Origin: Coemansia sp. RSA 487
Lineage: Eukaryota; Kickxellomycota; Kickxellomycetes; Kickxellales; Kickxellaceae
Direction: 5' to 3'
NCBI GenBank assembly: GCA_027577595.1
Contig: JANBRJ010000014.1
Span: 1 to 64,000 of the forward strand
DNA: 64,000 nt
The notes under the pieces were generated by a model that did no database searches, was not told the DNA's origin, and worked only from the letters and a program-made list of their open reading frames with translations. Numbering within the stretch: position 1 is the first letter of the stretch; each line of letters starts with the position of its first letter. Positions 17,871 through 47,901 of this stretch are shown here, piece by piece. Made by a program: the position numbers and the translations under genes.

Positions 17871-18104
17871 GTCATCCTTCATACGCTGGCCTTTATACTT
17901 TGAAAGAAGCTTCCATGAAGCAGAGCACGTTTTGTTCTATATTCCTATTTGCTTCTTTGCTACAAAAATGATTTTCTAGGTCTTTGCAATTGTCGCACGG
18001 TTCTCTATATTTATCAAGCCAAGAGTTTTGTTGCGTCATGTCTAAGCATATTTTCCTTTTCGTTATTATTACATTTTATTAATTTATTTCTAACATTAAC
18101 AGCA

Positions 18105-19049
18105 ATGTACTCCCAAGGGTATTTTCAGATAATTATTGTGCTGGTCGCTACGTTGATTTCATTTGCACAGGCTCATACGCAAGTCTATAATGCCGGAGCA
18201 AGTGGAAATCTGGGCGTGGATTTCCAGTATCAAATCAAGAATGACTACGGAAATGGACCTATTAAGGATCTTGATTCTGCAGACCTTCGTTGTCGCAGCA
18301 AGAGCGCTATTAGTGGAACCGGTGTTGACAAGATATCGATTAATGCTGGCGAATCGCTTGACATCAGGTGGCGCCACTACAACAACTCTGTATCTGTCCC
18401 AGTAATGTCGCGCTCCCATGTTGGGCCATGCATGATATACATGGCACCACTATCTAGCCAAGGTGATGGCGACGTCTGGTTCAAGATCTTTGAGGAGGGG
18501 TGGGATTCTAGTGCAAAAAAATGGTGCACTGTAAAGGTCATTGACAACGATGGATTCTTTAATGTCACGATTCCGTCAGAAATCCCAAGCGGCAACTACC
18601 TTGTGCGCGCAGAGCTATTGGCGCTGCATCAGGCAAACAAAGAAGGCGGTGCGCAGTTTTATCCAAATTGTCTAGCTGTCACAGTAAATAATGGCGTTGC
18701 TTCTAGCCAGCCCAAAGGATATGCTATTCCGGGAATATACAGTTCGCAGGACCCTGGCATATTATACGACCGCAAAAACGATCCAGCGACATACACGATA
18801 CCAGGGCCGCCTCTTTTCGTGCCAAATACCTCACAGAACAACAGTGAAGCAGTTTCACCCTCATTAGCATCATCGGAACCACAAAGTAGTAGCACTATTA
18901 AGCCTACATCGACAACAATTAAAGACCAGGAGCCAACTGTCCAGATACCACCTCAAGGCACGGTAAGAAAATGCAAACCACGTCCTCCTGGCACTAATAA
19001 GTGCCGTCGCTTCAGAAGGCGGTATGCTGGGCATTACCTTCAAATGTAG
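18105..19049 (+). CDS. Secreted AA9-like lytic polysaccharide monooxygenase 1
   Basis: The product has 314 residues. A signal peptide of 23 residues ends AQA, leaving His24 as the mature N-terminus, the first ligand of the copper histidine brace. The second His is His105 in SRSHVGPCMIYMAPL, matching the HxGP motif of AA9. Further AA9 features are VWFKIFEEGWD, the alternating DVTIP-type strand, YLVRAELLALHQA and GGAQFYPNC with the axial Tyr. These enzymes bind copper and cleave polysaccharide chains oxidatively outside the cell. After the domain come a Pro/Ser/Thr-rich linker (about 250-290) and a basic tail, VRKCKPRPP...KCRRFRRRY, also present in the neighbour. The ATG at 18105 was chosen because it starts the signal peptide; the frame is open further upstream. 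Substrate is unknown. Confidence 0.85.
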   Translation: MYSQGYFQIIIVLVATLISFAQAHTQVYNAGASGNLGVDFQYQIKNDYGNGPIKDLDSADLRCRSKSAISGTGVDKISINAGESLDIRWRHYNNSVSVPVMSRSHVGPCMIYMAPLSSQGDGDVWFKIFEEGWDSSAKKWCTVKVIDNDGFFNVTIPSEIPSGNYLVRAELLALHQANKEGGAQFYPNCLAVTVNNGVASSQPKGYAIPGIYSSQDPGILYDRKNDPATYTIPGPPLFVPNTSQNNSEAVSPSLASSEPQSSSTIKPTSTTIKDQEPTVQIPPQGTVRKCKPRPPGTNKCRRFRRRYAGHYLQM

Positions 19050-19329
19050 CTTTGTAATCCTTTTTATGGTAGTTCTTTGCACATGTATAAAGGACACGAG
19101 TAGCAACCATTGGTGGGTGGAAATGAGAGCAATGTTTCTTTGCTTCGTTCGTTTGACAAGTCATCTCTATCTAAAAAGCGCGAGTGTGACAAGTGCTTAC
19201 ATTTGCTTTGCGTCTATAGTTGAACAAAGCAAAGGAAAATAACTATTACATTACATTATACTCTTCTTCCTTCCATCTCCAGTCTTTTTTGGTTTTTATG
19301 CACTATCACCTTGTTTTTTCTTACGACAT

Positions 19330-20364
19330 ATGCAGCACAGAAATCGAATTAACCTATACTTTAGCTTGGCAATACTGTGTCAATGCATCGAGCTGGCCCG
19401 TGCACACACATTCCTCTGGGGAGTCACCACCAATGGAGTGACACACGGCATGACCGAGTGCGTTCGACCCTACATATCAAATAGCCTGCGCACATTCCCT
19501 GTTACCAGCGTCTCATCCACCGATCTTACTTGCAGGACAAGCAGCATGGATGCATCGGCAACAGAAAAGTGCCCAATCGCTGCTGGCAGCGTTATTTCGC
19601 TGCAGTGGAGCCACCACGACAATGACTTTACGTCGCCCATTTCACAGTCACACACCGGGCCAGTTATAGTCTACATGGCGCCGCTCGAATCCAACGGTGC
19701 TGGCAACGTGTGGTTCAAGATCTACGAGGAAGGATGGGACAGCAGCTCAAAGCAGTGGAGCACAGATAAGCTTATTGCCAACAACGGCAAGCGTGACGTC
19801 ACGATTCCGTCAGATATTAAGGCAGGTGATTACTTGTTGCGCTCAGAGATCATTGCCCTTCATAATGCGCGTACTGTAGGTGGAGCTCAGTTCTATCCAA
19901 ACTGTGTGCAGCTGACGGTGACTGGTGGCGGCAGCAATGTTCCGTCGGGCGTGGCTATTCCTGGCACCTATGGTGATCACGATCCGGGAATCCTGTATTC
20001 ACGTAGCAGCTCTGATAATTCTGACTATGTGATACCCGGCCCACCAGTATATGAATCAGGTGGTAGCGGTGGTAGCAACATCAGCACCAACAGCAAGTCA
20101 AATGAAACAAGCTCAGCCGCCAGCAATGAGCCTCCATCACTGCCATCTGAACCATCTGTCAACAGCCAAGCGTCATCGCAATCGTCCGAGCCGCCAGTTG
20201 AATCTTCTGTGCCAACACCCATCAACCTGACCCCAATAGTAAGCAAGTGCCGGCCAAGACCTCCCAGCTCCAAGTGCAGTCCTGGGTTTACAAGAAGAAT
20301 GATCAAACGTACAATGCAAGAGCAGCAGCAACCAACCAACCCTCCTCCGCGTGCAGAGCTGTAA
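19330..20364 (+). CDS. Secreted AA9-like lytic polysaccharide monooxygenase 2
   Basis: The product has 344 residues. The signal peptide ends ARA, giving His26 as the mature N-terminus; His108 in SQSHTGPVIVYMAPL completes the copper brace, and GGAQFYPNC carries the axial Tyr. The core (VWFKIYEEGWDSSSKQW, DVTIPSDIKAGDYLLRSE, GVAIPGTY) is closely similar to the preceding gene, 280 bases upstream on the same strand, so the two arose by tandem duplication. The function is oxidative cleavage of a polysaccharide outside the cell. The C-terminal linker is longer and rich in Ser, Glu and Pro, and ends in the shared motif KCRPRPPSSKC followed by basic residues. That tail is not a GPI signal or a carbohydrate-binding module I recognise. 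Confidence 0.88.
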   Translation: MQHRNRINLYFSLAILCQCIELARAHTFLWGVTTNGVTHGMTECVRPYISNSLRTFPVTSVSSTDLTCRTSSMDASATEKCPIAAGSVISLQWSHHDNDFTSPISQSHTGPVIVYMAPLESNGAGNVWFKIYEEGWDSSSKQWSTDKLIANNGKRDVTIPSDIKAGDYLLRSEIIALHNARTVGGAQFYPNCVQLTVTGGGSNVPSGVAIPGTYGDHDPGILYSRSSSDNSDYVIPGPPVYESGGSGGSNISTNSKSNETSSAASNEPPSLPSEPSVNSQASSQSSEPPVESSVPTPINLTPIVSKCRPRPPSSKCSPGFTRRMIKRTMQEQQQPTNPPPRAEL

Positions 20365-20689: not shown

Positions 20690-23600
20690 ATGTCTACGGC
20701 CGCTATTGCATCGCCAAATAGCGGCAACGAAAGTGCGCTTCTCCAAGCGCTTGGCGAGTGTCTTTTTAAGCTTGACGCCGGGAACTATTCCGGGTCGCTT
20801 GCCGCACTAAACAGGTACTCGCGCCCCACAGAATCTGAAGAGGAAGACGAGCCTACTTTTGACGACAGCCACAGCGACGCAAGCAGCAACAGCGACGATT
20901 ATAGAGACGCTAGTAGCTCACCTGGTTGGTTAAGCGACGAAGAAGGGCCTTCTATGCCGGCAGAGTTCTCTGTTGATGACGTTTTTGGCAAGCTCCGCCA
21001 ATTCGTGCAACGTGAGCAGAACCGCCAGAACATCACCACCACAAGCGGAAACAGTGCTCAGAAGCCAGCGACGCCCAATTGGTGGTCGACTTTTATGCCG
21101 GCTGATGTGCAGGCTGCACCTGCCACCTGGTCGCCTCCAGCAATGGTCATTCAGCCTCCACAGAATAACGACTCGTCGGCCATCGAGCCGGCTTACTTGG
21201 CGCCACCGACACTATCATCAGGCGATGGTCGCTTTCCGACTCCCGCCAGCCCGGCGCTTGCCGTGGTTGCATCGACCGGCGAGCAAGTGTGCGTCGAATG
21301 CATTCGTGCCTGTGAGAGCGTGGCCGACGCAGTTCTAAATGGCGACTTTAGCGCTCGTGTTCGCTGCAAGCGCTGCCACCCCAACAGCGATTCGAATACG
21401 CCGCTGATTGGGCGGCCGCAGACGCACACGCAGAAGCTGGCCAACCGCGTCAACCGCATGGCATCGCTTCTCTCTTTTGTGACGCGCGAGATCACCGAGG
21501 TCGCGCGCAATGACGGCGCTCGCGGGTTCCTCGGATCCCAGGGCAAGATTGACGGACTTAAAGGAAACTGGCTTGATTTGATGAACGAAGTGAACACGCT
21601 GACGATGATCCACACGGAGCAGGTCCGCAGCATCGCGCATGTGTGCAACGCTGTGGCTAACGGCGACTTGAGCGAGAAGCTGACTGTGAAGCTGAACGGC
21701 GAGATGGGCGACCTCAAGACCACCATCAACGGAATGGTCGACCAGCTAGGAGCCTTTTCGGTCGAGGTCACACGGGTCACGCATGCGGTCGGCACCGAGG
21801 GTATTTTGGGCGTCAGCGCCAACGTCCCCGGCGTCAATGGTGTTTGGAAACAGCTTACGGATAACGTCAACAACATGGCCAACAACCTGACGGTTCAGGT
21901 GCGCGGTATTTCAGCAGTGTGCAAGTCGGTTTCGCGCGGTGATCTGACTCAGACTATTGGGATCACAGCCAACGGCGAGATGCTTGAGCTGACGACTACA
22001 ATCAACGAGATGGTTTCCAAGCTGGACATGATGTCTGGCGAGGTTTCGCGCGTCGCAGTCGAGGTCGGAGTCCATGGCAAGCTGGGCGGCCAGGCGTACG
22101 TCACTGGGCTGGAGGGAACGTGGATGGCAATGACCGACAATGTCAACCACATGGCCAACAACCTGACTAGCCAGGTGCGGGAGATTAGCTTAGTTACCCG
22201 CGCTGTTGCCCAGGGCGATTTTACCCAGAAGGTCACATCCAACCTGAGCGGCGAGATGCTTACGCTCAAGCAGACAATCAACAACATGGTCAACCGGCTG
22301 TTGCACCTGACTGATGAGGTTACTCGCGTTGCCATAGAGGTCGGGCTGGAGGGCCGACTTGGCGCCCAGGCGCACACTGGCGATGCAGAGGGCGCGTGGA
22401 AAGATCTAGTTACCAACATCAACAAAATGGCGTACAATATCACCCGCCAGGTACGCACAATCAGCGAGGTTGCTGCGTCGGTCTCCGAAGGTGATCTGAG
22501 CAAGCTTGTCGACATTCCGTGCAAGGGCGAGATGGAGTCCCTGAAGATCACAATCAACGAGATGGTTGGCCGGTTTCATACGTTCTCGAGTGAAGTCACG
22601 CGCGTCGCTCGCGAGGTCGGCACGGATGGTGATCTTGGTGGCCAGGCATCTGTGCCCGATGTCGAAGGCATTTGGAAGGACCTGACCAACAATGTCAACA
22701 AGATGGCCAAAAACCTTACAGACCAAGTCAGGGACATTGCTGCCGTCACCAAGGCCGTCGCTGCTGGAGATCTGACAAGGAAGGTTGAGATTCCTCTGGA
22801 TGGCGAGATGGGCGAGCTCAAGACCACAATCAACACGATGGTTGACCAGCTGAGTACGTTTGCCTCAGAGGTGTCGCGTGTAGCCAAACAGGTCGGGACA
22901 GAGGGCAACTTGGGCGGTTCTGCAATTGTGCCCAATGTCGGCGGCACATGGAAAGACCTTACTGACAATGTCAACAACATGGCGAAAAACCTCACAGATC
23001 AAGTGCGAGACATTGCGACTGTCACAAAAGCTGTTGCAGCCGGCGATCTCACCCAGAAGGTCAATTCTGAACTTAAAGGAGAGATGGGTGAGCTCAAAAC
23101 CACCATCAATACCATGGTTGACCAACTCAGCGTGTTCGCAGCAGAGGTCACTCGTGTCGCCAAAGAAGTCGGCTCTGAGGGCAAATTAGGCGGTACTGCG
23201 AACGTTGAAGGTGTCGATGGAACCTGGAAGGATCTCACTGATAATGTCAATAACATGGCAAAGAACCTTACAGATCAGGTGCGAGATATAGCGAGAGTGA
23301 CCAAGGCCGTTGCAGCTGGTGACCTGACACGCCAAATCGAGATTCCTTTGAATGGCGAGATGGGCGAGCTGAAGGAGACTATCAACACGATGGTGGACCA
23401 GCTTAGCACCTTTGCCGCCGAAGTCACACGCGTAGCCAAGGAAGTAGGCACCGATGGGAATCTGGGTGGCGAAGCAAAGGTCAAGGGTGTGGATGGCACG
23501 TGGAAGGACCTCACCGACAATGTCAACGAGATGGCCAAGAATCTGACGGACCAAGTGCGAGATATTGCTGCTGTCACCAAAGCTGTTGCCGCTGGCGACC

Positions 23601-26600
23601 TCACCCGAAAAGTCGAGATTCCTCTGAACGGCGAAATGGGCGAATTAAAGTCGACTATTAACAGAATGGTTGACCAGCTTAGCACCTTTGCTTCTGAGGT
23701 CACCCGAGTTGCTCGAGAAGTCGGCACCGATGGCAACCTGGGCGGCGAAGCCGATGTCAAGGGCGTCGATGGCACTTGGAAGGACCTGACTGACAGTGTT
23801 AACAAGATGGCAAAGAACCTAACGGATCAGGTACGAGACATTGCTGCTGTCACTAAGGCTGTTGCTGCCGGCGATCTAACGCGGAAAGTGCAAGTGCCGT
23901 TGAGTGGCGAAATGGAAGAGCTGAAAACTACAATCAACACGATGGTTGATCAGCTTAGTACTTTCGCTGCTGAAGTTTCGCGAGTCGCCAAAGAGGTTGG
24001 TACCGAAGGTAAGCTTGGAGGCACAGCAAACGTTGAAGGTGTAGACGGTACATGGAAGGACCTGACCGACAATGTGAACAACATGGCGAAAAATCTTACG
24101 GATCAGGTGCGAGACATTGCCAATGTCACCAAGGCTGTTGCTGCTGGCGACCTCACTCGAAAAGTGCAAGTGCCGTTGAGCGGCGAGATGGAAGAGCTCA
24201 AACTCACCATCAACCGAATGGTCGACCAGCTCGGCACTTTTGCATCTGAAGTGTCTCGTGTCGCCAAGGAGGTCGGCACTGATGGCGAGCTCGGTGGGTC
24301 TGCGGATGTCCCCAATGTTGACGGCACGTGGAAGGACCTCACTGATAACGTCAACAACATGGCAAAGAACCTCACTGACCAAGTGCGAGACATTGCAACT
24401 GTCACCAAGGCTGTAGCCGCCGGCGATCTTACTCAAAAGGTCAACTCTGACCTCAAGGGCGAGATGGGTGAGCTCAAGACCACAATCAACACGATGGTTG
24501 ACCAGCTTAGTACTTTTGCTGCCGAGGTGTCCCGTGTGGCCAAAGAAGTCGGTACTGAGGGCAAGCTTGGAGGCGAAGCCAACGTCCCCAATGTAGACGG
24601 TACGTGGAAGGACCTCACATACAACGTCAACAACATGGCAAAGAACCTCACTGATCAAGTACGAGACATTGCGACTGTCACCAAGGCTGTTGCCGCCGGA
24701 GACCTCACGCGAAAGGTCCAGGTGCCATTAAGCGGCGAAATGGAAGACCTTAAACTCACCATCAACAGAATGGTCGACCAGCTCGGTACTTTTGCGGCCG
24801 AAGTTACCAGGGTTGCCAAAGAGGTCGGCACCGAAGGCAAGCTTGGTGGGTCTGCCATTGTCCCCAATGTCGACGGCACGTGGAAGGACCTGACTGATAA
24901 CGTCAACAACATGGCGCAGAACCTAACCAACCAAGTGCGAGACATTGCGACTGTCACTAAAGCCGTTGCCGCTGGTGATCTGACTAGGAAGGTGCAGGTG
25001 CCGTTGAGCGGCGAGATGGAGGAACTCAAGTTCACCATTAACACAATGGTCGACCAGCTCAACACTTTTGCGTTTGAGGTTACGCGAGTGGCCAAAGAGG
25101 TCGGCACTGACGGCAAGCTCGGTGGTGAAGCCAACGTTGAGGGCGTCGACGGCACTTGGAAAAATCTTACTGACAATGTCAATGAGATGGCCAAGAACCT
25201 CACTAACCAGGTGCGAGACATTGCCACTGTCACCAAAGCTGTAGCCGCCGGCGATCTTACGCAAAAGGTTAATTCCGAGTTGAACGGCGAAATGGGTGAA
25301 CTCAAAGCTACCATCAACACTATGGTCGACCAGCTCAGTGTCTTTGCCGCAGAAGTTTCACGAGTCGCCAAGGAGGTCGGTACCGAAGGCAAATTAGGCG
25401 GTACCGCCAACGTCCCCAACGTCGATGGTACGTGGAAGGACCTCACCGACAACGTCAACAACATGGCCAAGAACTTGACAGACCAAGTGCGAGATATTGC
25501 CACTGTCACCAAAGCTGTAGCCGCCGGCGATCTTACGCAAAAGGTTAATTCCGAGTTGAATGGCGAAATGGGAGAGCTCAAGGCGACTATTAACACTATG
25601 GTGGACCAGCTCAGCGTGTTTGCTGCAGAAGTGACTCGAGTCGCCAAAGAAGTCGGCACTGATGGCAAGCTTGGAGGCTCTGCGATCGTTCCTAATGTCG
25701 GCGGCACGTGGAAGGGCTTGACAGACAACGTCAACGAGATGGCGAAAAACCTCACTAACCAGGTGCGAGACATCGCCACTGTCACCAAAGCTGTTGCCGC
25801 TGGAGATCTCACGCAAAAGGTCAACTCTGAGCTAAAGGGAGAGATGGGCGAGCTAAAGGCCACCATCAACACGATGGTGGACCAACTTAGTGTATTTGCT
25901 GCAGAGGTCACTCGTGTTGCTAAAGAAGTCGGTACCGATGGCAAGCTCGGCGGTTCGGCAATTGTTCCAAATGTCGGCGGCACTTGGAAGGGGCTGACTG
26001 ATAACGTCAACGAGATGGCGAAAAATCTCACTAACCAAGTACGAGATATCGCTACCGTCACCAAAGCCGTCGCTGCTGGCGATCTCACCCAGAAGGTCAA
26101 CTCGGAGTTGAATGGCGAAATGGGTGAACTCAAAGCAACTATCAATACGATGGTCGATCAACTTAATACGTTTGCATTCGAAGTCACTCGAGTCGCCAAA
26201 GAAGTCGGCACTGATGGCAAGCTTGGAGGCTCTGCGATCGTTCCTAATGTCGGCGGCACGTGGAAGGGCTTGACAGACAACGTCAACGAGATGGCGAAAA
26301 ACCTCACTAACCAGGTGCGAGACATCGCCACTGTCACCAAAGCTGTTGCCGCTGGAGATCTCACGCAAAAGGTCAACTCTGAGCTAAAGGGAGAGATGGG
26401 CGAGCTGAAAGAAACCATCAACACGATGGTTGACCAGCTCAGCGTGTTTGCTGCAGAGGTCACTCGCGTTGCTAAAGAAGTTGGTACCGACGGCAAGCTT
26501 GGCGGCTCGGCATATGTTCCTAACGTTGGTGGAACCTGGAAGGGTCTGACAGACAATGTCAATGAAATGGCCAAAAACCTTACGGACCAAGTCAGAGATA

Positions 26601-29600
26601 TCGCACAAGTTACCAAAGCCGTCGCAGCTGGAGACCTGACGCAGAAGGTCAATTCGGAGCTCAAGGGCGAGATGGGCGAACTCAAGGAGACTATCAATAC
26701 GATGGTTGACCAGCTGAGTACTTTTGCTGCAGAGGTATCGCGAGTTGCCAAGGAGGTCGGCACCGATGGAAAACTTGGCGGTACTGCCAATGTCGAAGGT
26801 GTTGACGGCACCTGGAAAGATCTGACTGATAATGTCAACAACATGGCAAAGAACCTGACAGACCAAGTCAGAGACATTGCGCGAGTGACCAAGGCTGTTG
26901 CGGCAGGCGATTTGACGCGCCAGATCGAGATTCCTTTGAATGGCGAGATGGGCGGGCTCAAGTTTACAATCAACCGAATGGTCGATCAACTCAGTATCTT
27001 TGCTTCGGAAGTCACCCGAGTTGCCCGCGAAGTCGGTACTGATGGTAACCTGGGAGGCGAAGCTAATGTCAAGGGCGTCGACGGCACGTGGAAAGACCTG
27101 ACCGACAGTGTCAACAAGATGGCCAAGAACTTGACGGACCAAGTCAGAGACATTGCCGCTGTCACCAAAGCTGTAGCCGCTGGTGATCTAACGCGAAAGG
27201 TCCAAGTTCCATTGAGCGGTGAGATGGAAGAGCTGAAGCTGACGATTAATACAATGGTGGACCAGCTTGGCACTTTTGCCGCTGAAGTCACCCGAGTTGC
27301 CAAGGAGGTCGGCACCGAAGGCAAACTCGGGGGTACTGCGAATGTGCCCAATGTCGGCGGTACCTGGAAGGGCTTGACGGACAGTGTGAACAGCATGGCC
27401 AAGAATCTAACGGACCAAGTGCGCGACATCGCCCAAGTAACAAAGGCTGTTGCCAGTGGCGACCTCACCCGAAAGGTCCAGGTTCCTCTGAGCGGTGAAA
27501 TGGAAGAGCTTAAGACGACTATCAACACAATGGTTGACCAGCTCAGTACTTTCGCTGCTGAAGTTACCCGAGTTGCTAAAGAAGTCGGTACTGAGGGCAA
27601 GCTTGGTGGCGAAGCTAATGTCCCCAATGTAGATGGCACGTGGAAGGATCTCACCTTTAATGTCAACAACATGGCAAAGAACCTCACTGATCAAGTACGA
27701 GATATTGCGACCGTCACCAAAGCCGTTGCCGCTGGCGACCTCACTCGAAAGGTGCAAGTACCGTTGAGCGGTGAGATGGAAGAGCTCAAGCTTACCATCA
27801 ACCGAATGGTTGACCAGCTCAGTACTTTTGCATCAGAGGTTTCGCGTGTTGCAAAAGAAGTCGGTACTGAAGGCAAGCTTGGTGGCACAGCCAACGTGGA
27901 AGGTGTCGACGGTACGTGGAAAGACCTGACCGACAACGTCAACAACATGGCCAACAATCTAACCGACCAAGTGCGAGACATTGCGACTGTCACCAAGGCT
28001 GTTGCCGCCGGAGATCTCACGCGAAAGGTCCAGGTGCCATTAAGCGGCGAAATGGAAGACCTTAAACTCACCATCAATCGAATGGTCGACCAACTCGGCA
28101 CTTTCGCTTCTGAAGTGTCCCGTGTCGCCAAAGAGGTCGGCACCGAAGGCAAGCTTGGCGGCGAAGCCAATGTTGAAGGGGTCGACGGTACGTGGAAGGA
28201 TCTAACCGACAACGTCAACAACATGGCTAACAACCTGACCAACCAAGTGCGCGATATTGCCCAAGTAACCAAAGCTGTGGCTGCTGGAGACCTTACCCAG
28301 AAGGTTACGTCGGATCTTCAGGGCGAAATGGGAGAGCTCAAGGCTACCATTAACACGATGGTGGGTCAGCTCGGCACGTTTGCTGCTGAGGTTACTCGAG
28401 TCGCAAAGGAGGTCGGCACAGACGGTGAACTCGGCGGTGTGGCTAATGTTGAAGGCGTCGACGGCACGTGGAAGGATCTTACCGACAGTGTCAACAACAT
28501 GGCGAAAAACCTTACAGACCAGGTGCGAGATATCGCTCAAGTGACCAAAGCCGTTGCCGCTGGCGACCTCACTCGAAAGGTGCAAGTGCCGTTGAGCGGT
28601 GAGATGGAAGAGCTCAAGCTCACCATCAACCGAATGGTCGACCAGCTCGGCACTTTCGCCTCTGAAGTGTCCCGTGTTGCCAAAGAAGTCGGGACAGATG
28701 GCGATCTCGGCGGTGTTGCCAATGTCGAGGGGGTCGATGGCACGTGGAAGGACCTTACCGACAATGTAAACAACATGGCAAAGAACCTTACAGACCAGGT
28801 GCGAGACATTGCGACTGTCACCAAAGCTGTCGCCGCCGGAGATCTCACGCGAAAGGTGCAGGTCCCATTGAATGGCGAGATGGGTGAACTCAAGGCGACG
28901 ATAAACACGATGGTTGACCAGCTCAGCACTTTTGCCGTCGAAGTCACTCGTGTTTCCAAAGAGGTCGGTACCGAGGGTAAGCTTGGTGGTAAAGCAAACG
29001 TCGTTGGCGTCCATGGGACTTGGAGACGCCTTACCGATAATGTCAACGACATGGCCATGAACCTGACCAACCAGGTGCGGTCTGTAGTCGCTGTAACCAC
29101 GGCTATTGCCGATGGCGACCTGAGCAAAAAGGTCGACGTCGATGTGCAGGGCGAGATGCTGGATCTTAAGTTGACTATCAATGACATGGTGGACAAACTA
29201 CGCGAGATCGTATCATCGGTGTCCAGCGTTGCGCTGCAAGTCGGTACAGACGGTATTCTTGGTGGCCAGGCTACGTTACCAAACCTCGATGGTACGTGGA
29301 AGGACCTGACCAATAATGTCAATAAGATGGCGCAGAATCTGACCAACCAAGTACGAGATATCGCCCAAGTGACTAGAGCGGTTGCCGCTGGCGATCTGAC
29401 TAGGAAAGTGCAGGTTCCGTTGAGCGGCGAGATGGGCGAGCTCAAGACCACAATCAACACGATGGTTGACCAGCTGAGTACATTTGCCTCAGAGGTGTCG
29501 CGTGTAGCCAAGCAAGTCGGAACCGATGGCGAGCTGGGCGGTGAAGCCAACGTTGAGGGCGTCGACGGCACTTGGAAGGATCTAACTGACAATGTCAACG

Positions 29601-32600
29601 AGATGGCCAAGAACCTGACCAGCCAAGTCCGCTCGATCAGTCAGGTCACAACAGCCGTTGCTAACGGCGATTTGACCCAAAAGATCGAAGTCGATGCCAA
29701 GGGCGAGATGTTGGAGCTCAAGACTACCATCAACCGAATGGTCGACCAGCTTAATACGTTTGCTTCCGAAGTCACTCGAGTCGCTAAAGAAGTCGGCACT
29801 GATGGCAAGCTTGGAGGCTCTGCAATCGTTCCTAATGTCGGCGGCACGTGGAAGGGCTTGACAGACAACGTCAACGAGATGGCGAAAAACCTCACTAACC
29901 AGGTGCGAGACATCGCTACTATCACCAAAGCTGTTGCCGCTGGAGATCTCACGCAAAAGGTCAACTCTGAGCTAAAGGGAGAGATGGGCGAGCTGAAAGA
30001 AACCATCAACACGATGGTTGACCAGCTCAGCGTGTTTGCTTCTGAGGTTACCAGGGTCGCCAAGGAGGTCGGAACGGAAGGCAAACTTGGTGGCCAAGCC
30101 AATGTCGTTGGTGTCGATGGAACCTGGAAGGGTCTGACAGACAATGTCAATGAAATGGCCAAAAACCTTACGGACCAAGTCAGAGATATCGCACAAGTTA
30201 CCAAAGCCGTCGCAGCTGGAGACCTGACGCAGAAGGTCAATTCGGAGCTCAAGGGCGAGATGGGCGAACTCAAAGAGACTATCAATACGATGGTTGACCA
30301 GCTGAGTACTTTTGCTGCAGAGGTATCGCGAGTTGCCAAGGAGGTCGGCACCGATGGAAAACTCGGTGGCACTGCCAATGTTCCCAACGTTGATGGCACT
30401 TGGAAAGATCTGACCGATAATGTCAACAACATGGCCAAAAACTTGACAGATCAGGTCAGAGATATCGCCGCTGTGACCAAGGCTGTTGCGGCAGGCGATT
30501 TGACGCGCCAGATCGAGATTCCTTTGAACGGTGAAATGGGCGAGCTCAAGTCTACTATCAATCGAATGGTCGACCAGCTCAGCATCTTTGCATCCGAGGT
30601 CACTCGAGTCGCGCGCGAGGTCAGTTCTGATGGTGTTCTTGGCGGCATGGCTGAGGTCCCTAACGTCGACGGAACGTGGAAGGGCCTTACCGACAGTGTC
30701 AACAAGATGGTTCGCAATTTGACAGACCAGGTGCGAGACATCGCGACTGTCACCAAAGCTGTAGCTGCTGGCGATCTGACGCGAAAGGTCCAAGTTCCAT
30801 TGAGCGGTGAGATGGAAGAGCTGAAGCTGACGATTAATACAATGGTTGACCAGCTCAACACGTTTGCTTTCGAGGTCACTCGAGTCGCAAAGGAAGTCGG
30901 CACTGATGGCAAACTCGGGGGTACCGCAAACGTTCCCAATGTCGACGGGACGTGGAAGGATCTCACCGATAATGTCAACGAAATGGCCAAGAATCTCACT
31001 AACCAGGTACGCGATATTGCCCAAGTGACAAAGGCGGTCGCTGCCGGCGATCTCACCCAAAAGGTTAACTCTGAGCTTAAAGGAGAGATGGGTGAGCTCA
31101 AGGCCACCATCAACACCATGGTGGACCAACTCGGCACGTTTGCATCAGAGGTATCCCGCGTTGCCAAAGAAGTCGGTACTGACGGTGAACTTGGCGGTGT
31201 TGCTAATGTCGAGGGAGTCGACGGCACGTGGAAAGACTTGACTGACAACGTCAACAGTATGGCCAAGAATCTCACGGACCAAGTTAGAGATATCGCTCAA
31301 GTTACAAAAGCCGTTGCCGCTGGCGATTTGAACCTAAAGGTTAAAGTACCGCTAAATGGCGAGATGGGCGAACTCAAAGCGACAATAAACACGATGGTGG
31401 ACCAGCTCAGTACTTTTGCGTCGGAGGTATCGCGAGTCGCCAAGGAAGTCGGCACCGACGGCAATCTTGGTGGCGAGGCAAACGTCAAGGGCGTTGATGG
31501 CACATGGAAGGATCTCACTGACAATGTCAACCGTATGGCGCGTAACCTGACGGACCAAGTACGGTCGATCAGCGGAGTTACCAAAGCAGTGGCTCACGGT
31601 GATCTGACGCAGAAGATCGAGGTCGATGCCAAGGGCGAGATGTTAGAACTTAAGAACACCATTAACGTCATGGTGGACCAGCTGAGCACGTTTGCCTCTG
31701 AAGTCACTCGCGTTGCTCGAGAGGTCGGTACCGAGGGCAAGCTTGGCGGCACCGCAAATGTTCCTAATGTCGATGGAACGTGGAAGGACCTGACAGACAG
31801 CGTGAATGAGATGGCCAAAAACTTGACAGACCAGGTCAGGGACATCGCCCAAGTGACAAAGGCCGTTGCTAAAGGCGATCTCTCGCGAAAGGTGCAAGTT
31901 CCGCTGAGTGGCGAGATGGGCGAGCTCAAAACAACCATTAACGCGATGGTCCGGCGCCTCAGTAACTTTGCCGCTGAGGTCAACAAGGTTGCGCGCGAGG
32001 TCGGCACTGAAGGCAAGCTTGGCGTCCAGGCGCACGTGCTGGATGTCGACGGCATTTGGCGCGAGGTGACAACAAAGGTCAACAACATGGCACACAACTT
32101 AACAAACCAAGTGCGCGCGTTTGCGATGATTAGTGCGGCCGCAACGTTGGGCGACTACAGCTCGATGATCACCATCGACGCTATGGGTGAGATGGATGCA
32201 CTCAAGTCGCAGATCAATCGCATGGTTGAGTCGCTTCGTGAGAGCATTTCGCGTCATATGCAGGCCCGCGATGCAGCCGTGCTGGCTAACCGCGCAAAGA
32301 GCGAGTTCCTGGCGAATATGTCTCACGAGGTGCGCACGCCGCTGAACGGCATTCTAGGCATGACCAGCGCAACACTAGAGACAAACCTGACGCACGCGCA
32401 ACGCGATTCGCTATTGATTGTCTCGAGTCTGTCAAACTCGCTGTTGTCGATTCTCGATGACCTGCTTGATTTGTCCAAGATCGAGGCCGGACGCATGAGT
32501 ATTGAGAACATCCATTACACGCTGCGCTCTGCGATATACGGTGTTCTCAAGGCGGTGTCGCTAAAGTTTGTGCAAAAAGGCCTGGGAATTTCTCTGCACT

Positions 32601-35600
32601 GCGATTCGAATGTCCCGGATGACGTTATTGGCGATCCACACCGCTTGCGTCAAGTTATGACCAACCTTGTCGGCAACGCGCTCAAGTTCACGAATGAGGG
32701 CGGTGTGGGCATCAGCTGCCGCGTGGCTGCACACAAGCCTAACAACCACGTTATTCTGGAGGTATCTGTGCGCGACACAGGCATAGGTATCCAGCCCGAC
32801 AAACTGACGATGATCTTTGACTCTTTTGCGCAAGCGGACGGCTCGACAACGCGCAAGTATGGTGGCACGGGTCTTGGTCTGAGCATCTCGAAACGCCTGT
32901 GCGAGCTAATGGGCGGTGACATTCGTGTTGAGAGCGAGTACGGAGTTGGATCCAACTTTATCTTCACTGTTGACGTTGAGGCGCCGAATTTCAGCTTCCC
33001 GCACTACGAGCGGCGCATCCAGCCGTACCGCAACCGCAATGTGCTGATTATCCACGACCCAGCCCAGCGGCCGCAGACTCTAGACGATGTCCTCCATCTG
33101 CGCGGCTTGCTTGCCAAATTCCACCTCAGCTCTGCAACAGTTGAGTCTGCAGACCACGCATCAGCGATGACATGGCGCGGGGCGCAGGGCCGGCAGATCT
33201 TTGATACGATCATTGTCGACAGTCTGGAAACGGCGGACCGTCTGCGGTCCGCCGGCGTCTTTAACCTCAATATCATGCCGATTGTCTACTTCCCCGAACC
33301 GTGGAGCCCGGGGGTCAACATGAACCGGGTCATTGATCTTGGCATCTGTTCGATCCTCGACGCACCATTCACCTACGACAAGGTTGCATGCGCGATCCTG
33401 CCTGCGCTGGAGTCGCACTCGCTGATCCCCGACCTAGGCAAGTTCCGTCGCCGCCCGCTACACATCCTGCTTGCCGAGGACAATGTGGTCAACCAGAAGC
33501 TGGCGCTGCGCATCTTGCAAAAATGCAACCACAAGGTCGAGGTTGTTTCGAACGGCGAACTGGCTGTAGAGGCTGTGGTTGATCAGTGGCAGCGCAATTT
33601 GGCTATCTATGGCAGCCACATCAGGCATTCGTCGTCAAACTCGGCCAGCGATGATGACGAGAAGGCGTCGTGCCGAAGCAACGGTGGTGGTGGCTTGCAT
33701 AGCCGCTCGCCGTTTGCAATGGATCCTGACGACCCGTCGCCTGGAGATGAGCGTAGCGCCTATATCGCCAATTATACCATTCAGCAGCAACAGCAGCAAG
33801 AGCAAGAGCAGCAGCTTCAGCAAAATGAGCAAGAACAAGAGCAGCGACAGCGGCAGAGACATGCGGGCGCTACACCCAGCAATGGAAGCAGCTCAGAGTC
33901 CGATAGCAGCGATGATTCAACCAGCAGGAAGACTGGTGGCGATGGTAGCAGCAATAACACTGATGCCGTCAATGGTGGCGATGGCGCGGCTAGTGAAAAC
34001 GGCGATGGCGACACGCAGCATGCAATGTCAGAGGATGGTAAGCCCCAGTATGCAGACGGCACTATCTTTGCTGACAGCATCTATCCACCCGCAGTCAAGG
34101 TGCCCGACGACATGCCTCTGGTCCTTGAGGCGCTTATCATGCCAGATGACGAGCCTGGAACCACCAGGAAGCCTGCTGAGCCGCCGCTTCCGCCACAGCC
34201 GCCAGCAGCCAGTGAGGACGAGTTCTCAGTGCGCAAGCCGCCGGGTGTGCGCGACCCAAACAGCAAGTTCTTCTGCGTGCCGATGCCCTATGATATTATT
34301 CTTATGGATGTACAGATGCCGGTAATGGGCGGATTCGAGAGTACCAACTGCATCCGCATGTGGGAGGAGAAGGAGGGTGTAGACTTCCGCATCCCGATCA
34401 TTGCACTGACTGCCCATGCGATGCTAGGCGACCGCGAGCGGTGCCTTGCGGCTGGAATGGACGAATACGTGACCAAGCCGCTCCGCTTTGAGGCGCTGCT
34501 CTCCACAATCGACCGCTTCCACCCGCGCATGTACACCGAGTCTGGCGAGATTGTCCCGATTAACCCGCCCGAGCCTAGCGACCACAGCAGCGATGAGGAC
34601 GACAGTAGCTTCAGCGATGCGTCGGTGTCGGCGTCGGTGTCGGTGTCGGCGTCGGAGAGTAACTCCAGCTTCAGCGGTGGTGACAATGACAACGACGATG
34701 ACTATGTCAGTGATGTGCCTTCCGACTATGCTGGCGGCAAGAACAACACGCCTAGAAATACTCACAAGCACAAAGACGGCCATCCTCATCACCATCACAA
34801 CCATCACAATCACCACAAGCACAATACTTTGTTTACAAGGAGCGCCGAGCCGTTAAATCAGGAATGGCAGGATGCGCGCGACCGCAGCTTGCACGCCAAG
34901 GTGGACGACCCAAGCAACGTGGCATACAGTAATGCACGTGCCTTGGCCCGCGACCGAACGCACGAGGATATCCAGAACGAGGACATTGAGGCGCGCGTTG
35001 CGCGGCAGACTGCTGCTGCGCAGCTTTTGCGCAAGCACGTTGACTTGTACAAGCGCAAGTACGGTTCGGATTTGGCCAACTTGCCTGGAATGGAAGAAGC
35101 AAAATCTGACATCAAGAAGCAGGATGGAGACATCGACAACAATGAAGCGAATGAGCAGAAGAGTAAGGATCGCGAGACTGCTAGTGACAACGACAATGCT
35201 GGTGGCCGTGCTAGCAGTGGCATCGGCACCAGCAAAATCGGCAAGGAGGTTAGCAGAAGCGTCAGCCTCACTAATATAGCCGCTAGTAGCAACATCATTG
35301 AAATAGCAGAAGATCAGAACGACGACGATACCAATGTCACGCCTGTGGACGAGATTGATGGTGGTAGCAGCAGCATCAGCAGAAGCAGCAGCGCCGCGGT
35401 TGCCAATAAGCGGCCTCCCAAGGCGAGAAAATCGTCATCACAGCCGCCTGCTGCAGTAACGCCGCTACCGCTTCTTTCGTCGCACACGCACCATGGTCCA
35501 CCATTGCTTCCTGACCACGGCACACTCTCATTAACTGCTGCAAGCAGACAGGCCCAAAGATCGGCATTCAAGACCGACGCAACAGCAGTGATCAGATCGC

Positions 35601-36856
35601 CAAAGTCATCGACATCGTCGTCTAGTGGTAAGGTGCCAGGAAGAGAAACGTCGCCGCGCCATGGAAGCAAGAAGCATGGCAAGTCGCATATGTATGGCGG
35701 CGGTGGATCATTTGACGATCCCAGATATGGAGGCAATGAGAGGCACCATCGCCACCATGAAGGTGGTGGAAGTCGGCGCAACTCGAGTCGCCATTATGAC
35801 TTCCAGCGCCGTCGCAAAACCAAGGACATTTACGGCGTCGACTACAGCAGCAACAACAGGGAAACTCCAGACTTCAGCTCGAATTACCTGGATGTCCCGC
35901 GCCACAGCATCATTGACCCGACTATGCTGAGCTTTGATCTTCCTGGCGCGTCGTCGACGCAGCCAAGCTACGGTCGATTTGGAAGCGGTTCTGGTACCAG
36001 CGGCACCAACTACAACACTAACGCTGCTAGTGGCGATAGCACCGGCGCCGGTGATGCCAGTGGTAGCACTAGCGGTGCTGGCATGGTTGGATCGAGCTCG
36101 TTTGGCGGTCTTCTCCGTTCACAAAAGCGCAGCAACATTGCAGTCAGCAGCGGCGTGAAACAGCTCCAGCTCCAGCAGCAGCAGCTCCTACAACAACAGT
36201 ATCAGCAGCAACTGCTACAGGAACAGCAAAGCCGGAAGGATATCACCAGCGCATGGTCGATAGCCAAGCCCGTTGGCGAGAGCTTTTTGCCGTCGGCAAC
36301 CTCTACATCTACGCCGGGCGTTGCAGCTCCTCTTGGTGCCGACAGCGCAGTAGGAGCAGCATCATCGTCGTTGCTTGTGCCAGGCACTATTGCCCCCGAG
36401 TCTGCTTCTGCTTCTGCTTCTGCTTCTACAACGCAGCCACGCACCTATGCGCGGTTGAAGACCACTGCTGAGATTGCAGCAGCTATGGATGCTGCTGCTG
36501 CTGGAGATAAGAATGCTTTGCGCGCAATCCAGGCGACTGGGATGCTATCTGATCTGGATGACACTCCGACCGAGCCGGCGGATCCACGGATCGAGTTTTC
36601 AACGCATGGTTTGGAGGGTCCTGATCTATCTCTGCCCCAGCATCAAATTGAGGATCCGGTACAGCAACAGCCGTCGCCCCCGGTGGCGATAGAGGAGCCC
36701 AAGAGCCAGGTCAAGCTGTCACAGAGTGTGCGTGATCGGTTGATCAAGGCGCGTATGAAGCAAAAGCAGATGCAACAGCAGCGCCAGAAGCAACAGCAAG
36801 AAGATCCACCGGAGCAGCCGGAGAACAAGAACAGCAACGAAACGAACAACGCTTAA
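20690..36856 (+). CDS. Giant group III (Nik1/Os-1-type) hybrid histidine kinase with 39 HAMP units
   Basis: One 5388-codon frame without introns. Residues 1-265 are disordered and acidic with a four-Cys patch (about 205-228). Residues 267-3854 are 39 HAMP-type units of 92 residues. The dimerisation helix follows with His3879 in [12 protein letters not shown], then the ATPase domain with Asn3996 (N box), DTGIGI (4029-4034) and GGTGLGL (4058-4064). A degenerate receiver precedes the true receiver: acidic pair Glu4263/Asp4264, phospho-acceptor Asp4540 in [11 protein letters not shown], Lys4596. Between acidic pair and acceptor lie about 275 residues rather than about 45, because a Gln/Ser/Asp-rich segment is inserted. 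A tail of about 780 residues rich in Ser, His and Gln follows. Group III kinases are soluble sensors feeding the Hog1 osmotic-stress pathway and are the target of phenylpyrrole and dicarboximide fungicides. All catalytic residues are present. Usual members have about 5-9 HAMP repeats, so the repeat number is exceptional. Confidence 0.95.
21488..32251 (+). repeat. 39 tandem HAMP-coding units, 276 nt each
   Basis: From EITEVAR at 21488 to VESLRES at 32251 the coding sequence repeats every 276 nt (92 codons). The first and last equivalent positions (VNTL at 21590 and VNNM at 32078) are exactly 38 x 276 apart, so there is no net insertion or deletion. A typical unit reads [53 protein letters not shown] and INTMVDQL. 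Units 1-4, 28, 30, 37 and 39 are the most divergent; the rest are highly uniform. In Nik1 proteins each 92-residue unit contains a canonical HAMP and an intervening HAMP-like segment. Confidence 0.95.
26165..27255 (+). repeat. Internal segmental duplicate of four HAMP units (partner 29753-30843)
   Basis: About 1.1 kb here is nearly identical to 29753-30843 at a constant offset of 3588 bases, which is 13 units of 276. Matching checkpoints are TGCGATCGTTCC at 26233 with TGCAATCGTTCC at 29821, and AACCTGGAAGGGTCTGAC at 26533 with the same at 30121. A shorter stretch of about 220 bases at 25637 also matches 26189 at a two-unit offset. Confidence 0.85.
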
Positions 36857-40049: not shown

Positions 40050-43000
40050 TTAAAGCTGGCTGTGTGGCATTGGAAGCTCAGTGAAACGGCTGACTGGACG
40101 CACTCCATCGTTTCCAAACTCATCAATTGCCTGGGCAACCGCCTCCATCTGCTCGATTTGCATCTGACGCTCGAGAATTTCCGCCTCATAGTCTGCCCAA
40201 GTCTTCATGGGTACGTCGTCAGGATTGAAAGGGTCTTCATCCTTGACAAAAATCTGGCGCTTGCCGTCGTCGCCAACAACAATGCGCGTGTTTCCCCACG
40301 AAAAGTCGTCCATGTGCCAGAAGGCGTAGATAGGAATGAAAAACGACCACAGCGGATACGCAAGCAGGTAGATTATCATCCATCCGATGTGTTGCCACTG
40401 CCGCTTCAGCACAAAGATTACTGCCTGCAGCCCGTATATGGCGCCAATCAGAATCAGCGAAATATATCCAATGTCGGCAATCTTTGTTACCGCCAAGTAC
40501 ACCAGGTAGATCAGATAGAACAGCGTGCACGGCATCGTCAGCGTTCCGAGCAAATCAATAAACACCACAAAGCGCATCGAAAAGCAGCAGAACCCGCACA
40601 TCTCCGGAAGGAACACCAGCTCCACCAGGTTGTGCACAGTCGAGTTGATCCACCGGCGCCGCTGCGACAGCAGAACAGACCAGGTATCGGGCGCCGTTGT
40701 CTTGCTCTTGGCATCGGGCGTAAACGTCATCTTGTACTGTGGGAAGTACTTCATCATCAGAGTCGTCAGGTACCGGTCCTCGCCAAGCGACAGCAGATTC
40801 TTCTTGTGCAGCGTGTCGACGTGATTCTCCGAGTAGTCGCGCACCACGTTCTTGGAGATGATTAGCGGCAGCCCGCGGTTCGTGCGCAGGCGGTACATGC
40901 AGAAGCAGCCAGGCAAGCAAGTGACAGAGCCAAACAGCGATTCGAACGCCTTGGCCATATGGTGCGAGATAAAGTACTCGTAGACCTGGATCATCGTGGT
41001 CCACGAAAAGTCCTCGTTGGTCAGCATGGTCTCGCCGCAGATGCCAATGACCTTGGCGTCGTGGACCATGCACGATACAAGGCGTGTCAGCGAGTCTGGC
41101 AGCACCTCAGTGTCGGCGTCAACCATCAGCAGATACTCGTACAGCGACGGGTGGACGCCAATGACGTTCTTCATCTGGTGATAGATCTCCAGATCAAGCG
41201 GCGACATTGGCGCCTCAAAGTGCACGCGGTTGAGGAAGTGAAGCAGCAGCATCTGCGAGTCGCGCTTGCCACGGTTGCCGGGGCGAGACTTTTCAGACTG
41301 CTTTCCAATCTTTGCAACAACCAAATAAGGCACGACATGGCCCTCGTACTCGTACAGGCCAGAGTAGACCTTGGCGACGTTGTGCTGCTGCGCGCCCTCG
41401 CCGATGGAGCGGAACGCACGACCCGGTGGATCGAGCTTCGGGTCAACCCCTAGGATGTCAAGCACAATGCGCGGCGTCGGGCGGTCGTTCCCGGAGCCGA
41501 CAATGTTGCCGTCGCAGATGATGAACAACAGGCGATGCTTGTCGTTGTATCCCAGCGTGGCGAGCGTGTCGATTGTACGGCGCAGCGATGTCTCGCCCTC
41601 GGTGTAGCAGGGCACTTGGCAGATAACAAACTTGTCGTGCTTCTGCGGCTTGCGGCGCGATGACAGCTGCAGCGACGCCAGGAACTTGATGGTGATGACA
41701 AGCATGAGTAGGCAGGCAGCGGCCAGGAGCAGGAAGTTAGGGAACAAACAGCGGAAGCTGTGGCGCGTGTCGACGCGGCCAACGTAGAAGAGGCTCTTCA
41801 GGCAGCGGTAGTTTGCCTGACGTACACGACGCGTCAGCGGAAGCAAGTTCCAGTACTTTGTAATGTCGGTGTCGCGCGCACCGGCGTCCTCAAAGATCGA
41901 CTCGACCAGGCGATGCAGGAAATGCCACTTCTTGGAGTCAATGTTCTCCGGCGCATCGCGCGTCTGGAAGTAGGGCCCCATGTTGAAGACCTCGCCGTTG
42001 ATGACGCGCCAGTACTGGCCGGCCTTGTGGTGCATGGCCTGGATGTGCGCCAAGTCCCAAACGACGTCGCCAACGCGGAAGGGGCGCATCTTGGGTAGCA
42101 CTGAGCGGTAGTAAAAGTCCTGGCGCATCAGCTCCTTCGAGTTGGCCAGCGATCCAGCTCGATGAATGAACGGGAACGACATCTCAGTTTCGATGTCGGA
42201 CTTGAGATACATCAGCCAGTGCGGGTCGTCTTGCGCGGAGATGAGTTCAGGACAGGCGGCACGCAGCGTCAGTGGGAACGACGAGTTGATCTCCTGGCCA
42301 GAATACATGATCATGTCCTCAGGACTCGCACCGCCGCGGCTGCGCCCGTGCTCCTGATTCAAGAAGTTGGTGATGTCGTAGACGCGGCCGCGCATCGCAA
42401 CGTACGCGTCGCTGCGCTCGGTGTGGCCAGAGACCTCGTCCATAGTGTAGACATACTGCTTGGGGCACATGATCAGACCGAGTCCAATGATGAAGAACAG
42501 AACCAGGCCCCACATCCCAAGGATAATGATGCAGATTGCCACCTTCTCGCGCCATGCCATGCGTATGTCCTCGCGCTTCAGTCCGCAGCATCCCATTGCC
42601 CAGTCCGGCACCAGCCATGTCAGGCCCTTTGTTGTGCGTGACCAGCACCGCCGCGCACTCGTCGTCTCGATCTCCTCGACTGGCTGCTGGTGCAATCCGC
42701 CTGCCATTGCGCGCTTCTCACCGCCGCCGGCTGCCAGCCCACCACCGCCAGCAGAAATGCCCTCAGGGCCGTCTGCGTACGCAGCATTGTTGTCATCGTC
42801 CCAGTATGCGCCATCGCCGTCGCCATCGCTCCAGCACCCATCGTCCTCGGCGCCATCGCTCCAGGCCCCGCCTCCATAGCCCTCGGATCCGTCGACATCG
42901 CTGCCATACGTCGTACTGGCTGCATCATCGTCGTCTCCATCAAATGGCATGCGTGGCGGTGGATGCAGCTCGCCGTTGCTGTCCATCTGCGCTAGCGCCT

Positions 43001-46148: not shown

Positions 46149-46994
46149 CTAGTATGTGCTCAGGTGCTTTTTAGAGAGCCCAGTCGCATCCATGATAAAC
46201 TTCAGGTGATAAATCGTATGCAAGTAGTAGTGTACCGACGTCTCGGCCGAGCACGTTCGCTTTCCATTCCAGCGGACGTGGCTATCAAACGCTGCAAGCA
46301 TTGGTGTGCCTTCGTTATTGATGGTCACGCCAGTGCCAGAATCACCATTGCATGAGCTGACACCTGGCGTGTATTTTCCTGGTGTGCATATCAGTGGCCC
46401 GTCAGCGTCAAAGCTCGAAAACAACAGCTTACAGTCAGATACTGTGCCTGTGACGAGCGTTGATCCACGCAGCGCGGTGCTCTGGAACCCTGTCTCGGTT
46501 TGTCCCCAGCCAATGGCCATAACTGGTTCTTTGGCTCCGATAGGCAAGCTGTACAACGCTATTCGCTGGACAGTGCCACTGAACACGAGCTTTGGGATCT
46601 GCATTATGGCTATATCGTTTGTTCGGTTCTTTTGCCCATTCACCATATAGTCTGGGTGTACCGTTGCCTTTATAACAGTGACTGTGGTTTGCCTGTACAG
46701 CTCAACGCTTCCGTAACCTACACTTATATCTGCGGCGGGTGTAACCGACAAGTTGGAGTCTATCACGCAATGCGCGGCAGTTACTATATGTTCAGAGGAA
46801 AGTATGCTTCCTCCGCACACATGGATAGCGCCATCGCTGTCTTTTCTTTTTATATAAACCGCATATGCTCCCTGCTGCTCTGGAATTAAAAAGCCGCCGA
46901 CTACTCGTTTTTCCAGTGCCCTTTCAGCCATTAGTGGTCCCGACATTAATAAGCAAATTGCCAGGAAAGCAAGTAACAGACGGCATGTACACAT
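46149..46994 (-). CDS. Secreted chymotrypsin/trypsin-fold serine protease (S1)
   Basis: The 281-residue protein has a signal peptide (to about residue 23) and a short propeptide ending EKR, followed by VVGGF, the activated N-terminus after Kex2-type or trypsin-like cleavage. The catalytic triad is complete: His75 in VTAAHC, Asp127 in NDIAIM and Ser219 in CNGDSGTG. The usual GDSGGP reads GDSGTG. The residue equivalent to trypsin Asp189 is Ser213, so the primary specificity is probably not for Lys or Arg. It is secreted and likely digests extracellular protein, or host protein if the fungus is associated with an animal. The C-terminal 30 residues (HHYLKFI-like helix and a short tail) are ordinary for the fold. 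It is transcribed divergently from the S1-like gene at 47902. Confidence 0.9.
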   Translation of the reverse strand: MCTCRLLLAFLAICLLMSGPLMAERALEKRVVGGFLIPEQQGAYAVYIKRKDSDGAIHVCGGSILSSEHIVTAAHCVIDSNLSVTPAADISVGYGSVELYRQTTVTVIKATVHPDYMVNGQKNRTNDIAIMQIPKLVFSGTVQRIALYSLPIGAKEPVMAIGWGQTETGFQSTALRGSTLVTGTVSDCKLLFSSFDADGPLICTPGKYTPGVSSCNGDSGTGVTINNEGTPMLAAFDSHVRWNGKRTCSAETSVHYYLHTIYHLKFIMDATGLSKKHLSTY

Positions 46995-47901
46995 AACTTA
47001 CAAAATAAAGTTAAATCATTGACGAGTGGTGCTGAATGTATCAAGAAAAACGCTAATAGGCAAACAACCTCATTTGATTCTTGGAACAAGCCCATGCAAG
47101 TCTTTTTTTGGAACAACATAACCCGGATATACGCATGATCCGATTCAATTTTGGAAACATATCCATATCTCAATATGGATTTTTGCTAATCAAAGTGGTG
47201 ATCAATTAAAACATTCTTCCCCTCTTCCTTTATCATGTGCGACATAGAACAGAATCCACGGTCGTCAGAAAATTAGACTTTTCCTTTTCCCACTCGTTTG
47301 CAAAAAGGAATAAAGATCTTTTACAACGACAAAATGGGCAAAGAAGATAGCGGCCTTTTCTCGCTTCCATATCGCATAAAGCACAATGAATAACCGAAAG
47401 CGGAAGGTGCAAAATAACCCTTCTGTTTGTTGAATATTGAAGCAAAGAAAAGCAAATAAAAAATTAAATAAAACTCCTTCCCAAGAAGTTTTCATTTGTA
47501 AAGAGACACATCTTTATGTTCCACTATTCTTTATAACTTTTGTCCTATATAAATGAAGTAGAATGGACGATGGTAAAGAAGTCGCAAAGTTATTGTGTAA
47601 AGATGTAAAGGGAATAAAGGATAAAGAAATAAAACCAAGGCCCATCTACTAGATATTTCATGTAAAGAACACTTTCTCTTAGCATTCCTTTTTTTAGTCC
47701 CGGAAAGAGGACAACCCTTCCTTCCTTCCGATATAACTAGCGTCTTTCTTTCTTTCGTAAGGCATTTATTATCCATATTTTCTAATTAACGCGCACTTTC
47801 TTGCATTTTAATGACCATCTGTTTACTTCCATTCACTGTTTTCATCTTACTCTGTTGATTATCTTGTATATACGTTCTATATTAAAATCTGTGTATCCTC
47901 G
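46995..47901. other. Shared divergent promoter region of the two S1 genes
   Basis: 907 bases separate the two divergent start codons. The stretch is AT-rich with A and T tracts and no protein-like ORF. TATATAAATG occurs near 47545 on the plus strand and TATATACG near 47866, possible TATA elements for the plus-strand gene. Nothing else is recognisable. Confidence 0.4.

Follow-up and report, generated by a model that had tools for sequence, protein, structure and literature searches.

Phenylpyrrole and related fungicides need group III (Nik1-type) histidine kinases to act, and both the way in which HAMP arrays transmit signals and the reason why fungal Nik1 kinases need several HAMPs are open questions. 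The published maximum lies, to our knowledge, near 31 HAMPs. Kinases of this group work in the HOG phosphorelay and make cells sensitive to fludioxonil. They usually have five to six repeats (PMC3418262, PMC3848655), and the five repeats of CaNik1 amount to nine HAMPs (PMC3848655). Cells with CaNik1 from which every HAMP has been removed activate Hog1 (PMC3848655), and Drk1 turns from a kinase into a phosphatase acting on Ypd1, in part through a cysteine of its HAMP region (PMC6433957). In the bacterial chemoreceptor Aer2, HAMP1 and HAMP2 impose opposite outputs (PMC3570549). Early-diverging fungi also have group III kinases, according to a survey (PMC5285503).

The window, i.e. the whole stretch of 64,000 nucleotides that was analyzed, contains a forward-strand coding frame at 20690-36856 that starts with ATG, runs for 5388 codons with its sole stop at the end, and needs no intron. 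The nearest in-frame stop 5' of this ATG lies 8 codons upstream, and intron-like sites are no commoner within the frame (6) than in codon-shuffled sequence (4.7). For the array and the kinase core, the open frame and these counts support the claim of an earlier note on this DNA that the 5388 codons form a single exon. We considered that the gene could come from a bacterial contaminant or transfer and rejected this idea. The neighboring frames have the Pfam domains of a chitin synthase with a myosin motor, an AA9 oxygenase, a GATA factor, and an M3 peptidase, which point to a fungus; the myosin-motor chitin synthase and the GATA factor in particular speak against a bacterial genome. By these signs, the kinase frame is a genuine gene with one exon, and the genome around it is of fungal type. 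Its features are collected in Table 1.

Table 1. Features of the kinase frame and of one neighboring gene, with the evidence for each.
Feature	Position	Strand	Evidence
N-terminal 200 residues, acidic, low-complexity, without Pfam domain	20690-21289	+	Sequence, Pfam
Cysteine cluster CVECIRAC...CKRC (Cys201, 204, 208, 226, 229), within the degenerate first HAMP	21290-21376	+	Sequence
Degenerate first canonical HAMP (c0), connector carries an insertion	21293-21472	+	Weak match to the profile (residues 202-228, 2.5 bits), by-eye reading
39 d-c HAMP pairs of 276 nt each, with 78 modules of 46 aa	21473-32236	+	TRF, Pfam, half-unit profiles
Diverged flanking units 1-4	21473-22576	+	Mean identity to others 0.49-0.58 vs 0.72-0.80 for most inner units
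Expanded inner units 5-38, without cysteine	22577-31960	+	Grouped apart from bacterial units; units 28, 30, and 37 least typical
Units 18-21, source or copy in a duplication with a 13-unit period (partner 31-34)	26165-27268	+	Nucleotide identities 0.946, 0.935, 0.848, 0.819
Units 31-34, partners of 18-21	29753-30856	+	Nucleotide identity
Diverged last unit 39, adjoins the kinase	31961-32236	+	Mean amino-acid identity 0.41
HisKA; phospho-acceptor His3879 at 32324-32326	32294-32491	+	Pfam, motif
HATPase_c with N, G1, F, and G2 boxes	32630-32980	+	Pfam, motifs
Interval between ATPase and receiver, without Pfam match; presumably the place at which Drk1 has a pseudo-receiver	33011-33424	+	PMC6433957
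Receiver, first part (LLAEDN)	33452-33580	+	Best PDB match 8PHN residues 16-58, E 7e-11
Low-complexity insert of 235 residues (S/D/P/Q/G), flanked by the equivalents of 8PHN residues 58 and 61	33581-34285	+	
Receiver, second part, with Asp4540 (34307-34309), Thr, and Lys	34286-34510	+	8PHN residues 61-135, E 8.6e-24 (piece alone)
Ser-rich low-complexity tail, ~780 aa, without domain	34511-36853	+	Pfam, sequence
Chitin synthase (myosin motor head, Cyt-b5 domain)	40050-45518	-	Pfam

Most of the protein consists of a HAMP array of 3588 aa (residues 262-3849). TRF found a period of 276 nt with 33.7 copies in the kinase frame, and Pfam, applied to each half of the protein, detected 27 + 11 stretches of HAMP and 27 + 11 of HAMP_2, with an E-value of 1e-265 for HAMP. 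Using half-unit profiles, we counted 39 full canonical (c) and 39 full divergent (d) HAMP modules, each of 46 aa, which alternate strictly and with zero indels over the entire array. Thus, the 39 uninterrupted units of 92 residues that had been reported from the sequence were confirmed. Each such unit is, as in Nik1, a HAMP pair with one c and one d module. Together with the degenerate HAMP in front of the array, this makes 79 modules and not 39; the whole follows the pattern c-d-...-c with 40 c and 39 d modules, 78 of them full and one degenerate, an arrangement also found in CaNik1. The array had been put at about five times the usual length. It is indeed far longer than usual, but the ratio is ~9-fold in modules (79 versus 9), or 39 versus 5-6 in repeats. 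Along the array Pfam also gave names such as ATG17_like, Syntaxin_2, GLE1, and apolipoprotein, which scored below HAMP and which we discarded as cross-hits to helical repeats. The five-cysteine cluster of the first HAMP is a candidate metal or redox/thiol site and a putative input site. Units 5-39 lack cysteine; as the inner units were copied from one unit, their scarcity of cysteine is no independent evidence for a sensing end.

The array leads into an intact kinase core, in which Pfam recognized HisKA, HATPase_c, and, for the receiver, Response_reg. Besides His3879, the N box, and the two G boxes, which had already been recognized and were all found, the F box and the receiver residues (acidic pair, Asp, Thr, Lys) are present. 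An insert of ~235 residues interrupts the receiver, a feature that the earlier note passes over. This insert stands in for about 2 residues of the loop just before the strand bearing Asp4540 and leaves the catalytic residues in place, although it might impair phosphotransfer. A retained intron seems an unlikely explanation for the insert, which has no in-frame stop in 235 codons, resembles the tail in its codon-position GC, and has intron-like sites at chance level.

We assigned the protein to group III because of its HAMP-array anatomy, the lack of a membrane span, and the two receiver halves, both of which are nearest to 8PHN, the REC domain of the Nik1 orthologue hHK3 from C. thermophilum (PMC11224324). 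For the second half, 8PHN came ahead of the group IV and group VI receivers among the solved structures. The highest 19-residue hydropathy in the protein was 1.53, within the HisKA region, and no membrane span was detected. The protein has further traits of the Nik1 type, namely HAMP-pair repeats of ~90 aa followed by HisKA, HATPase_c, and a C-terminal receiver with its catalytic residues; the usual Nik1 size of 5-6 repeats, which is typical but not defining, is exceeded by its 39 repeats. Overall, this anatomy identifies the protein as a soluble group III (Nik1-type) hybrid histidine kinase and an extreme case within a known family, in agreement with the family named in the earlier note but not with its suggestion of an undescribed system. 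Like Nik1/Os-1, CaNik1, TcsC, Bos1, and Drk1, it is soluble and has N-terminal c-d HAMP pairs of ~92 aa, the order HisKA-HATPase-receiver, and an 8PHN-like receiver. It differs from these kinases in having 39 pairs instead of 5-6, the 235-residue insert in the receiver, and the tail of ~780 residues; the cysteine cluster of the first HAMP may be a further distinguishing feature. Our literature search found no paper on a fungal kinase with an array of this length. Judged by its sequence, what is new is the rod of 39 pairs in a Nik1-type kinase, while the kinase family and the c-d pair design are already known.

We compared the units with each other. All 39 are distinct, with a mean nucleotide identity of 0.69 (maximum 0.96) and a mean amino-acid identity of 0.73. 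Differences among units 5-38 numbered 8023, 6041, and 28162 at the three codon positions, a clear excess at the third. The median dN/dS was 0.094 for all units (528 computable pairs) and 0.074 for units 5-38 (391 pairs), with synonymous sites saturated in 213 of the 741 unit pairs, and dN was well below dS even in the youngest pairs (16-18 and 18-31). Hydrophobic and glycine positions had an entropy of 0.18 bits, compared to 0.82 bits for polar positions. This codon-level pattern indicates that the array is coding and that every unit is under purifying selection. It also bears on the possibility that the array was inflated or mis-ordered during assembly. The longest exact repeat, 221 nt between units 16 and 18 (nucleotide identity 0.960), could mislead a short-read assembler, and the count could then be off by a few units, but the array itself would not arise in this way. 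Copies made in error would be identical, whereas no two of the 39 units are, and the changes between them are codon-structured, which a neutral repeat would lack; a collapse with loss of units is as likely as a gain. We therefore regard an assembly artefact as very improbable.

The differences between units also contain a record of how the array grew. In a FastTree phylogeny the 34 inner units clustered together (support 0.79), separate from bacterial units and with units 1-4 outside, and 31 of them grouped with a support of 0.98; units 28, 30, and 37 attached first, and unit 28 is diverged within the inner block (0.58). IQ-TREE likewise grouped the inner units, except that unit 3, which has a long branch, was placed inside, whereas FastTree has it outside. 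The trees rest on 88 columns only, which limits their resolution, and support for the inner group is moderate. The simplest reading of these sequences is an ancestor with about the unit number of Nik1, the middle of which was then amplified. Such growth may have been neutral: the protein would work just like a Nik1 with 5-6 units, harmless extra pairs would have piled up by unequal crossing-over, and each would be conserved since a misfolded module breaks the rod. Duplications of differing age are visible, as expected in this case (units 16/18 and 18-21/31-34), and duplication of a pair keeps the register and, if the rules of Aer2 apply, the sign of the output. On the other hand, ~3600 residues are costly to keep. 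The sequence of one genome does not separate neutral elongation from a function tuned by length, and we consider the neutral account a serious but less probable alternative to the reading proposed below.

We next compared the array with bacterial HAMP arrays. Among solved structures, its units matched the bacterial HAMP array 9trk with an E-value of 4e-72, and 9trj was also matched. A scan of bacterial and archaeal genomes gave at least 79 loci with a poly-HAMP match, plus one contig from a viral collection. This contig (L080, from IMG/VR) has a bacterial-like poly-HAMP array and is perhaps a misfiled bacterial contig. Among the matches listed, the bacterial loci are 63-71% identical to the window array over five modules, strict alternation was present in 80 of the 81 related arrays with at least 6 modules, and 79 of the 81 have a c module last. 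The arrays of the bacterial kinases range from 7 to 30 modules among the matches listed, a wide variation in length that is consistent with neutral elongation, and the largest related array listed has 30 full modules. We also searched ~1800 bacterial genomes (bacteria only, no eukaryotes), covering the phylum of locus L021 (Myxococcota), the order of L038, and the phyla of L002, L069, L045, L028, L074, and L043, and mostly scored the best few candidates per genome. No matching open frame in this set exceeded 2876 aa, versus 3588 aa for the window array alone, which is longer than every poly-HAMP found in these genomes (mostly among the best few candidates of each). The group III-like AskA, AskB, and Amb07 of myxobacteria and 9trk/9trj share with the window protein the 92-residue pair, the strict alternation, and the c module in last position. 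The window protein differs from the bacterial poly-HAMP kinases by its 78 full modules, compared to at most 30 among the matches listed, and by inner units that group apart. Aer2, with its tri-HAMP structures 3LNR and 3VOL, resembles the window protein in its concatenated canonical and divergent HAMPs, and the match to 3vol is weak; it has three HAMPs and a chemoreceptor output, and its chain contains no kinase.

We propose that the protein is a soluble Nik1-type stress sensor whose rod was lengthened to 79 modules by whole c-d pairs, and we give this proposal, with the mechanism described here, a probability of about 0.62. The protein would be a parallel dimer with its modules stacked into a continuous four-helix rod, which would keep the kinase in a default state. 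Stress inside the cell, whether osmotic, aldehyde/thiol, or fungicide-like, could act on the rod or on the end that bears the cysteines and shift the c/d conformers, upon which the core would flip between kinase and phosphatase activity on a Ypd1-type phosphotransfer protein of the HOG branch. Unequal exchange of whole c-d pairs would have lengthened the rod. If adjacent HAMPs transmit opposite states, as they do in Aer2, a pair would be sign-neutral, and length could therefore change freely with no inversion of the output, so that expansion would be tolerated; the strict alternation in 80 of 81 arrays among the matches listed is compatible with such sign-neutral pairs. An AlphaFold model of five modules as a monomer had low confidence (pLDDT 48) and showed helices over ~30 residues per 46-residue module. 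Hence, the rod model is based on homology and the helix pattern only. From these helices we estimate a rise of ~15 residues or ~2.2 nm per module, so that 79 modules would extend over ~0.17-0.18 μm.

A rod of this length could have a mechanical or spatial role over a long range, holding a sensing end, with the cysteines and the acidic N terminus, at a long distance from the kinase, for example between cortex or organelle and cytosol. The continuous module register is consistent with this idea, as are the predicted helix pattern and the position of the cysteine cluster at the far end, with zero cysteines in units 5-39. However, the copying of one unit accounts for the scarcity of cysteine in the inner units, and Pfam and hydropathy analysis revealed no anchor, membrane span, or wall-binding domain. 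We consider a spatial role improbable. The suggestion that the array measures cell-wall distance likewise found no support, the protein having neither a membrane anchor nor a recognized cell-wall domain. Alternatively, the array could be a long-range allosteric cable that was selected as such, its length itself setting threshold, gain, or reach and its input being the cysteine-bearing first HAMP at ~0.17-0.18 μm from the kinase; this seems unlikely, though somewhat less so than the spatial role. For the stress sensor that we favor, length would most likely tune gain, threshold, or stability and would not measure distance.

With about nine times the modules of Nik1, each still constrained, the protein offers a natural experiment on the effect of rod length. 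Under a model in which the state alternates from one module to the next, a pair is predicted to be sign-neutral, and its removal should not invert the output. The relation between array length and response is also of practical interest, given the dependence of fungicides on group III kinases.

Several other frames of the window were noted. Directly upstream of the kinase (17919-20364), an AA9-type polysaccharide oxygenase frame is followed by a similar-looking second frame (19330-20364), and the two probably form a tandem pair. At 46149-49638, a trypsin-like frame on the reverse strand lies beside a Ser/Gly-rich frame of 578 aa, which has no Pfam match and a possible C-terminal membrane span. 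The secreted-looking frames at 50127-50768 and 52635-53645, the latter without a Pfam match, have similar C-terminal regions and are possible tandem duplicates.
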